Assembly: GCA_026693065.1 (NCBI GenBank)
Contig: JAPLNA010000210.1
Span: 1-38,566 of the forward strand
Direction of reading: 5' to 3'
DNA: 38,566 nucleotides
Source: Planctomycetota bacterium
GTDB taxonomy: Bacteria > Planctomycetota > Phycisphaerae > SM23-33
Of the stretch, positions 32,247 through 34,690 are shown piece by piece. The position numbers and the translations under genes were made by a program. The notes under the pieces were generated by a model. The model saw only the letters and a program-made list of their open reading frames with translations, was not told the DNA's origin and did not search any database. Each line of letters opens with the position of its first letter. Positions within the stretch are counted from its first letter, which is position 1.

Positions 32247-33266
32247 TCAGGCGAACAGGTGCCCGGGTTTGTTGTAGGCCAGCAGGGCGTCGCTGTGGTG
32301 GAGGGCCGCCTGCAGCGACTGGCGTTCGGCCTCCGTCATGGGCCCGAAGCGGTAGCAGACTTCCAGGTTCTGGCGGAGTTGCTTGTGGTCGTAAATGCCG
32401 TTGGTGGCGACGTGGATCGGCAGGGAGAGGGCGTAGCGGAGGAGTTTTTCGGGGGAGGCCTTGCCCGCCCCCTCGCCCACGAGCACGCCCGGAAGCCCCT
32501 CGACGCCCTTGCGGTCGTATTGCGGCGTCCCGCCCATCACCTTCATCGCGACGATGCCCAGGTTCTGCTTCCGGGCGACCGGCAGGAGCGTCTCTTCGTA
32601 CTCGCGACGCTCCTTGGTGGGGTTGAAGGTCGTCAATAGGGTGTCGAATTCGTACATTTCGATAGCCTGCTTCAGGCACGCGGCCCCGGCGTGGCCCGTC
32701 ACGCCGATGAATCGGATGACCTTCTGGTCGCGGAGTTTTCGCAGGAGGGTGTATACGCCGTCGGGTTTGCCCAGGGCGGCCAGGTCGTCGGTGGGCATGA
32801 GGCAGTGGACCTGGAGGCAGTCGAGGTGGTCGGTCTGGAGGAGCTTCAGGCTGGTCTCGATGTCCCGCATGGCCTTGTCGGCGGTGCGTTCGAGGGTCTT
32901 GGTGGCCAGGTAGACGTCCTTCCGCCGTTTGCCGATGGCCTTGCCGTATCGGCGTTCGCTGTTGCGGGGGTCGTCCTTTCGGCCGTACATCGCCGCCGTG
33001 TCGAGATAGGTTATGCCCGCGTCGATGCAGTCGTTGACGAACTTGACGGCCAGGTCGTCGTCGGGCAGGTCGGTCATGGCGCTCTGCCCGCCGAGGGCGA
33101 GGATGCTGACGGTGGCGCCGGTCTTCCCCAGGACGCGTGTGGGCATGGTGCCGGCGGGCCTGCTGGTCACGAGTGCCGCCCCGGCGGCGACCCTCGCCAT
33201 GGCGGCCCCGGCGGCGCCGGCGGCGGCGAGCTTCAGGAATCCCCTTCGTGACATGTCCTCGTTCAT
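32247..33266 (-). CDS. Tat-exported aldo/keto reductase
   Basis: This 339-residue protein begins with a twin-arginine signal (SRRGFLK at residues 6-12 followed by AAAGAAGAAMARVAAGAAL). The aldo/keto reductase barrel follows: YLDTAAMYG with the catalytic Asp and Tyr, VYLATKT with Lys, and CLQVHC with His, so the tetrad is intact. The NADPH-binding C-terminal part is somewhat short and Arg-poor. The start at 33266 has AAGGAG upstream. It is in one operon with the GH109-like gene downstream and probably handles an oxidised sugar derivative outside the membrane. It could share a saccharide pathway with the ABC importer upstream, but a REPIN-like repeat lies in between. Confidence 0.9.
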   Translation of the reverse strand: MNEDMSRRGFLKLAAAGAAGAAMARVAAGAALVTSRPAGTMPTRVLGKTGATVSILALGGQSAMTDLPDDDLAVKFVNDCIDAGITYLDTAAMYGRKDDPRNSERRYGKAIGKRRKDVYLATKTLERTADKAMRDIETSLKLLQTDHLDCLQVHCLMPTDDLAALGKPDGVYTLLRKLRDQKVIRFIGVTGHAGAACLKQAIEMYEFDTLLTTFNPTKERREYEETLLPVARKQNLGIVAMKVMGGTPQYDRKGVEGLPGVLVGEGAGKASPEKLLRYALSLPIHVATNGIYDHKQLRQNLEVCYRFGPMTEAERQSLQAALHHSDALLAYNKPGHLFA

Positions 33267-33354
33267 GGCAGCTCCTTCGAACAAGATGATACCCGCCGGC
33301 GCGGGGCATAGTCAAATACGGTCCGATGCCCGAGGCGTGACCGCCGTTGTCGGA

Positions 33355-33456
33355 CGCGGGTGCCGTGGTTCGCGGCGCAGCCGCAACCACGTCCCTATGA
33401 CCTCCGGCAGATCGAGCGGTGTGGTTGCGGCTGCGCCGCAAACCACGGCACCCGCG
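33355..33456. repeat. REPIN-like pair of inverted hairpins
   Basis: Two 36-bp arms (33355-33390 and 33421-33456) are inverted copies with one mismatch, separated by 30 bp. Each arm is itself a hairpin: GTGGTT, one bulged base, GCGGC, a three-base loop GCA, GCCGC, AACCAC (33365-33390), and the mirror image at 33421-33446. A short hairpin with a bulge, paired with an inverted copy, is the layout of REPINs/BIMEs. No T tract follows, so simple terminator function is unlikely, although it sits between the ABC permease stop and the next operon. Confidence 0.8.
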
Positions 33457-33499: not shown

Positions 33500-34690
33500 C
33501 TACAGGGCGCCGCGGCGTTTTTTGCCGAGGGTGTCGGCCAGGACGGCCAGCAGGAGGGTGGCGCCGATGATGAGTTCCTGGGCGTTGGTATTGATGCCCA
33601 GGAGGGTCAGGGCGCTGAGGATGATGGCCATGAGGATCGAGCCCAGGAAGGCCCCGAGCACGGTGCCCTCTCCGCCCTGGAGGCTGGCCCCGCCGATGAT
33701 GACGGCGGTGATGACCTGGAGTTCCAGCCCGACCCCGGCGGTGACGGAGGCGCTGCCCAGGCGGGCGGTCATGATCACGCCGGCGGCGGCGGCCAGCAGG
33801 CCCGTCAGGGTGTAGTTGAAGATCTTGATGCGGTCCACGCGGATGCCCGAGAGGATGGCGGCCTTTTCGTTGCCGCCGAGGTAGTAGTTCTGGCGGAAGA
33901 AGCGGCTGCGTCGCAGGAGGACGTCTCCGGCGGCCACCAGGACGAGGGAGATGAGGATGGGGAACTGGATGCGGGCGCCGCCGGGCAGGACGAGCCCGCC
34001 CTGCCCGATCACGGTGAAGGCCGTCGGAAGGTCCGAAACGTTCTTGCCGTTGGTGACCAGCAGGAGCAGGCCCCGCACGATCTGCATCATGCCCAGGGTG
34101 GTGATGAAGGGGTTGATGCCGACGCGAGCGACGATGAGCCCGTTGGCCGCGCCGACGGAGGCCCCGGTCGCCAGGCCGACCAGGAGGGCCAGCACCACGC
34201 CCAGGACGGCCGGGCCCGGGAGGGCGGGGCAGAGGCGTGTGAGGACCAGGGCCGCTGCCGCCCCGGCCAGCCCCGCCGTCGCCCCCACCGACAGGTCGAA
34301 CCCGCCCGAAACCAGCAGCACCGTCATGCCGATGGCGATGATCGCCTGGAGGGAGACGGCCAGCAGGATGGCCGACAGGTTCGTCCAGCCGAGGAAGACC
34401 TCGGAGGCGTCGGCCATGAAGGCGAAGGCGGCCAAGACGATCAGGAAGATCATGAGTTCGCGGACGCGCGCCATCGCCCGCCGCGCCGCCAGGAATACCC
34501 CCGCGCCCGCCAGCAGGGCCGACAGGGTGAAGGGCATCGCCAGCGGCAGGCCCAGGGCCTCCGACAGGACGATCTCCTGGAGAAAGCCGCCCGAGACGGG
34601 GCGGACGACCCCGAGGGCTCGCAGGACCAGCAGGGCGACGAAAACCCCCGCGCCGGCGGCCGTCATCACGATTCCCAGTTTCTTACGCAC
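33500..34690 (-). CDS. sugar-type ABC transporter permease (RbsC-like)
   Basis: This 396-residue membrane subunit is of the branched-chain/ribose permease family, with about ten helices. Family segments include NLSAILLAVSLQAIIAIGMTVLLVSGG, FDLSVGATAGLAGA, GAANGLIVARVGINPFITTLGMM and ITAVIIGGASLQGGEGTVLGA. The N-terminus has two additional hydrophobic stretches before the core, making it longer than E. coli RbsC (about 320). The start is GTG at 34690 with CAGGAG upstream, 22 nt after the ATPase stop. It is the last gene of the transporter operon. Confidence 0.93.
   Translation of the reverse strand: MRKKLGIVMTAAGAGVFVALLVLRALGVVRPVSGGFLQEIVLSEALGLPLAMPFTLSALLAGAGVFLAARRAMARVRELMIFLIVLAAFAFMADASEVFLGWTNLSAILLAVSLQAIIAIGMTVLLVSGGFDLSVGATAGLAGAAAALVLTRLCPALPGPAVLGVVLALLVGLATGASVGAANGLIVARVGINPFITTLGMMQIVRGLLLLVTNGKNVSDLPTAFTVIGQGGLVLPGGARIQFPILISLVLVAAGDVLLRRSRFFRQNYYLGGNEKAAILSGIRVDRIKIFNYTLTGLLAAAAGVIMTARLGSASVTAGVGLELQVITAVIIGGASLQGGEGTVLGAFLGSILMAIILSALTLLGINTNAQELIIGATLLLAVLADTLGKKRRGAL

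Follow-up and report, generated by a model that had tools for sequence, protein, structure and literature searches.

Cleavage by RAYT enzymes occurs at a position set by a guide tetranucleotide. Several described systems resemble the element analyzed here. In Pseudomonas fluorescens SBW25 (Bertels and Rainey 2011, PMC3116915), REPINs are described as inverted REP doublets that are mostly extragenic, keep the length of their spacer and are associated with a RAYT; in classical REPINs, spacer length and hairpin capacity are reported there to matter, and sequence less so. Planctomycetes are also described as having REPs, with R. baltica named in PMC3733652 (Di Nocera 2013), where the GTAG elements are palindromic, carry a head at one end, form dimers and accompany tyrosine transposases. 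A planctomycete example, which a sequence-only reading of this locus had held to be of interest, is therefore not in itself new. Double-foot REPs of TnpAREP subclass 2.4 (Quentin 2018, PMC6006769) are described with a stem of the form GTGG...CCAC, and TIRYT elements, with GGGGWSAS repeats (PMC3733652; subclass 2.1 in PMC6006769), are HUH-Y1 transposases flanked by inverted repeats.

Here we describe an element in a 38,566-nt stretch of Planctomycetota DNA (contig JAPLNA010000210.1, hereafter the window) that we consider, with a probability of roughly 0.87, to be a REPIN, that is, two inverted REP hairpins forming one non-autonomous mobile unit. As the sequence-only reading had it, two inverted arms of 36 bp lie at 33355-33390 and 33421-33456 and differ by a sole mismatch, C versus T at the bulge base; they lengthen to 40 bp if two mismatches are allowed. 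The predicted folding of each arm as GTGGTT-Y-GCGGC-GCA-GCCGC-AACCAC was likewise confirmed, and the whole copy folds as DNA into one long hairpin of -61.2 kcal/mol (z -9.7), equaled by 0 of 200 shuffles. When up to three mismatches are allowed, the window has two matches to the hairpin pattern and 100 shuffled windows have none. Both hairpins match the family pattern without mismatch. The left (33365-33390, plus strand), with C as its one-base bulge, folds with a z of -4.0; the right (33421-33446, minus strand), with T at that position and the usual closing G replaced by A in this copy, folds less distinctly as a half (z -2.2, 8 of 200 shuffles equal). Between them is a 30-nt spacer (33391-33420) whose sequence differs among copies.

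An alignment of 62 paired halves from the same genome located the head of the REP. Except in the loop and at the Y bulge, conservation is high through the hairpin, and it continues outward at 1.68-2.00 bits over a GGGTGCC heptamer, beyond which columns fall to 0.90, 0.49 and then at most 0.18. Because this heptamer belongs to the conserved unit, the REPIN extends over 96 bp, from 33358 to 33453, with heads outward and conservation stopping at its borders; the limits proposed earlier were 33355-33456. The left head (33358-33364, plus strand) is assigned from column conservation, the fold and the presence of the same heptamer at the head of hairpins beside RAYTs, the right head (33447-33453, minus strand) from column conservation. 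In the fold, the last C of GGGTGCC pairs with a G after the stem and GGGTGC is left unpaired, so that the four bases adjoining the hairpin are GTGC. The head implied by the sequence-only reading, GTGG, was rejected, as these bases start the stem and conservation runs on past them. SBW25 heads are described as GTGG-type (PMC2817692), in contrast to GGGTGC here. The window REP thus has neither GTAG nor GTGG directly 5' of its hairpin, where a GT[AG]G guide is placed; a sister head, GGGTGGC, leaves GTGG beside the hairpin and would satisfy that rule.

The element is one of a dispersed family. In the window's own genome (G000; 5.68 Mb in 441 contigs, 93% complete) we found 70 hairpin half-sites at up to two mismatches and none with a backwards-read control pattern. 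The repeat family postulated by the sequence-only reading therefore exists, and the outcome it had named as refuting, a unique element in a genome devoid of Y1 transposases, was not encountered, as G000 also has seven Y1_Tnp matches. Sixty-two half-sites form 31 inverted pairs, every one with its heads outward, and eight are unpaired (C64:8484, C109, C155, C206:62010, C218, C266, C299 and C331). Doublets outnumber singlets, as is characteristic of REPINs, although the approximately 31 pairs are few beside the 431 doublets reported for SBW25 (PMC3116915). All 31 spacers measure 26-30 nt, with a core identity of 0.35 versus 0.30 when shuffled; length and hairpin capacity are restricted and sequence is free, again as in REPINs. 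The window element belongs to a set of about 31 near-identical copies of a very small, probably mobile DNA element composed of two inverted hairpins. Hairpin-less GGGTGCCGTGGTTCGCC-like fragments stand in tandem beside two full REPINs (L007, before 1494; L027, after 1588).

The family is intergenic. The window copy lies between two minus-strand genes, the end of a sugar-type ABC transporter permease gene (33503-34690; PF02653, E 5e-40) and the start of an aldo/keto reductase gene (32250-33284; PF00248, E 2e-23), with a promoter-like match, by consensus only, at 33315-33286 between the REPIN and the reductase gene. Across the genome, 29 of 31 REPINs fall outside coding-like frames called with a simple home-made codon model, compared to 984 of 1550 random stretches that fall inside one. 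The other two (L014, 192-287; L044, 1506-1601) appear to lie within such frames and may be in-frame insertions or an error of the codon model.

Intergenic placement and a strong fold would also be expected of hairpins kept as RNA regulators (terminator, attenuator or mRNA stabilizer) and not as mobile DNA, and stems do show rare compensatory changes: two pairs and three cells among G000 halves, values reached by 18 and 3 of 500 shuffles, with one stem pair doubly changed and pairing kept in 2 of 31 distinct halves. The search for terminator-like sites returned none and no Rfam family matched within the window, so an intrinsic terminator and a known RNA family were both rejected. Moreover, the unpaired head is conserved as much as the stem, and the element adjoins RAYTs in related genomes. 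We regard a purely RNA-based role as the least probable explanation considered, at a few chances in a hundred or fewer, and a secondary regulatory role may accompany mobility.

Nearly as improbable is a MITE bounded by terminal inverted repeats and moved by a cut-and-paste (DDE) transposase. Inverted ends of about 40 bp, an overall length near 96 bp and numerous copies agree with such an element. Among 30 testable G000 copies, however, we saw no target duplication of 2-9 bp at seven offsets, the observed rate equaling that expected from random flank pairings, and on this ground a DDE-type MITE was rejected. Every arm is also itself a hairpin, and in relatives the same ends flank genes of HUH type, not DDE type.

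At up to one mismatch the full hairpin was found in G000 alone among 40 genomes searched, itself included, so relatives were sought by head alone. The foot GGTGCCGTGGTTNGC is present in 28 of 248 genomes of the class. Ten genomes, all of G000's own family or order, have at least four copies (G137, 117; G014, 98; G000, 64; G203, 17; G024, 15; G021 and G053, 11 each; G006, 7; G126, 5; G003, 4), and the others one or two. Foot-bearing relatives have the outer foot in common and differ in the inner stem. The REP pattern was found in no viral contig. Comparison of one REPIN of G137 with the congener G021 revealed flanks matched at 80-85%, with the GGGTGCC pair missing and other hairpins occupying the spot. 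This suggests REPIN turnover, short of proof of insertion; the single congener examined offered no clean empty site. A separate repeat of about 110-140 bp in G137 (L087, 2089-2228), matched dozens of times across G137 and G021, is unrelated to the GGGTGCC family.

Examination of the Y1 transposases of nine relatives for flanking REPs connected the family to a RAYT. In three genomes of related Phycisphaerae, such genes (in G053 and G021, and a third in G014, contig C155) adjoin REPs with the window's foot. The resulting REPtrons (L141/L161/L206, L140/L160/L207 and, for G014, L190/L208) have the window's head and outer stem, with an inner stem unlike the window's in two of the three. The flanking gene displays the hallmarks of a RAYT/TnpAREP: HUH and Y...NP motifs, a REP-transposase profile and the corresponding fold. 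Clade proteins contain P[DEN]HxH in 84 of 84 cases and Y...NP in 80 of 84, and all 14 members of a clade profile (A2) match NCBIfam NF047646, the REP-associated tyrosine transposase family. The E. coli REP transposase 4er8 was matched by sequence (E 2.5e-9), and an AlphaFold model of the L206 RAYT (pLDDT 90, 36-row alignment) was nearest to this same TnpAREP (Foldseek E 1.6e-8; Z 16.8 over 143 residues, rmsd 2.1). We read the fold matches ranked below the Y1 transposases, among them Thg1 and ribosomal S6, as sharing no more than an overall arrangement. Beside the G053 RAYT, partial 23-bp REP units form several head-to-tail repeats (L141, 1070-1180).

Unlike SBW25, G000 has no cognate RAYT in its assembly. 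A second profile of this RAYT (A1) matched 23 of 35 family genomes at E<=1e-8, and neither G000 nor G137 was among them; no cognate RAYT was found in G137 despite its 117 feet. In addition to the Y1_Tnp matches, G000 has nine matches to NF047646, all below cut-off (64.5 bits at best), and profile A2 reached 31 bits at best. The 22 loci around these transposase matches, overlaps included, contained no copy of the window's REP at up to six mismatches and no GGGTGSC hairpin. In related genomes, the RAYT-like gene anticipated by the sequence-only reading thus adjoins REPs of the same head and stem, but none was found in G000, and no Y1 locus checked there is flanked by a copy of the element, as had been envisaged. 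Consequently, the G000 REPINs are either a leftover after transposase loss or accompanied by a RAYT in an unassembled gap; a short repeat-flanked gene is likely to be easily dropped in assembly, and deletion of REPtrons has been described in known cases (PMC3733652).

Several G000 transposase loci have different repeats of their own. One Y1 transposase (L058; G000:C38, 117-1060) is flanked by AAAAAGGGGACAGGCTACTTTTT repeats fitting the GGGGWSAS motif of TIRYT elements, and its protein falls apart from the GGGTGSC clade in the tree; TIRYT elements differ from that clade in both motif and protein branch. Repeats flanking other Y1 genes (L059, C331, 1193-2094; L057, C365; L063, C43, 95-191) differ again, for example CAAGCCCCCCGCACCGCGGGGGG. 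G000 seems to harbor several REP-like systems side by side.

We then asked how the head is distributed among RAYTs at large. Among 84,980 species genomes scanned, we found 340 RAYT relatives and analyzed the best 80, nearly all from Planctomycetota. With no preset motif, GGGTGCC was the heptamer most often present in both flanks of these 80 (34, with 48 in either flank and 3 in a far control), followed by GGGTGGC (23, 35 and 3, respectively). A GGGTG[C/G]C heptamer with an adjacent perfect 6-bp stem was found near 61 of the best 80 versus 2 of 80 at about 1 kb, and in both flanks of 41. The bare heptamer occurred near 76 and far from 16 of the 80, and was wholly missing at 4. Among the 19 of these 80 loci that failed the strict tag test, several of those inspected had mismatched stems or the variants GTGTGCC (L236, L242) and GGGCGCC (L229). 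By comparison, 17 other RAYTs of the same family of genomes, of GTAG type, had no GGGTG[C/G]C hairpin (0/17) and had GTAG plus a stem in 9 of 17 cases. Outside Planctomycetota, clade RAYTs occur in a member of the Fimbriimonadaceae (L267, Armatimonadota) and in Zixibacteria (L250), possibly through horizontal transfer or misbinned contigs; their REPs have long stems and a head that is GGGTGGC or akin to it.

These data also bear on the proposition that the window element is a standard GT[AG]G double-foot REP of TnpAREP subclass 2.4, with GTGG as guide and CCAC as second foot. Its stem does start with GTGG and end with CCAC, as PMC6006769 describes for that subclass. Against this, seven to nine conserved bases lie beyond GTGG, so that here a further head precedes the stem, and stem starts vary across the clade (ATGCCC, ACCCTC, GTGGTT and others) while GGGTGSC is constant. 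GTAG plus a stem was found near none of the best 80 of the 340 RAYTs; GTGG plus a stem was found near 29 and far from 10 of the same 80, and may arise in GGGTGGC heads or GTGG-starting stems. We judge the double-foot assignment unlikely, if less so than the RNA and MITE alternatives, and retain a REPIN with a GGGTGC head.

Proteins follow the same division. In a tree of 104 sequences, a GGGTGSC group of 84 rows (support 95/81; heptamer in 79) stands apart from a second group of 17 rows (99/96), mostly GTAG. The stretch FW..G.G[YHF]DR is present in 78 of 84 GGGTGSC-clade proteins versus 0 of 17 of GTAG type, and W..[RK]..EH.. in 0 of 84 versus 16 of 17. Matching residues by eye, we read the former stretch as aligning with the part of TnpAREP that, according to PMC6006769 and PMC8266576, contacts the guide. 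C and G heads are mingled in the tree, with 19 and 17 changes that are clustered relative to shuffles; the fourth guide base has thus switched many times. Whereas GGGTGGC conforms to the GT[AG]G guide already described, GGGTGCC, with guide GTGC, is outside the rule; according to the main text of PMC3733652, R. baltica-type REPs have the tetranucleotide GTAG, as opposed to GTGC or GTGG within GGGTGSC here. The main text of PMC6006769 contains no GGTGCC, GTGC was absent from the main texts of PMC6006769 and PMC8266576, and GGGTGCC as a REP head was not found in the open-access main texts searched. GGGTGCC strings in published REP tables proved to be chance matches within GTGG-headed REPs of Stenotrophomonas.

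Movement of the REPIN is predicted by analogy with work on TnpAREP and IS200/IS605. The RAYT, an HUH single-strand nuclease, would bind the single-stranded REP hairpin, read the unpaired head GGGTGC, with GTGC beside the hairpin, as the guide for choosing its cleavage site, and excise and reinsert the REP pair as single-stranded DNA without target duplication. Somewhat short of even odds, we tentatively propose that a RAYT lineage centered on Planctomycetota, with an inserted FWQxGGGYDRN, uses a shifted guide (GGGTGC, with GTGC in place of GTAG/GTGG) and a different cleavage dinucleotide, and that at least two genomes of the order, G000 and G137, keep their largest REPIN populations after transposase loss. 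A shifted guide would be expected to bring a different dinucleotide; comparison of C and G heads revealed no clear head-dependent difference, position +1 being G in 95% and 94%, respectively, followed mostly by T or C.

A RAYT branch whose fourth guide base changes back and forth between C and G, alongside a matching protein change that appears to lie next to known guide contacts, would constitute a natural test of guide-directed cleavage. Furthermore, the large REPIN populations of G000 and G137, with no cognate RAYT detected in either genome, bear on whether REPINs persist through benefit to the host or through mere copying by the transposase.
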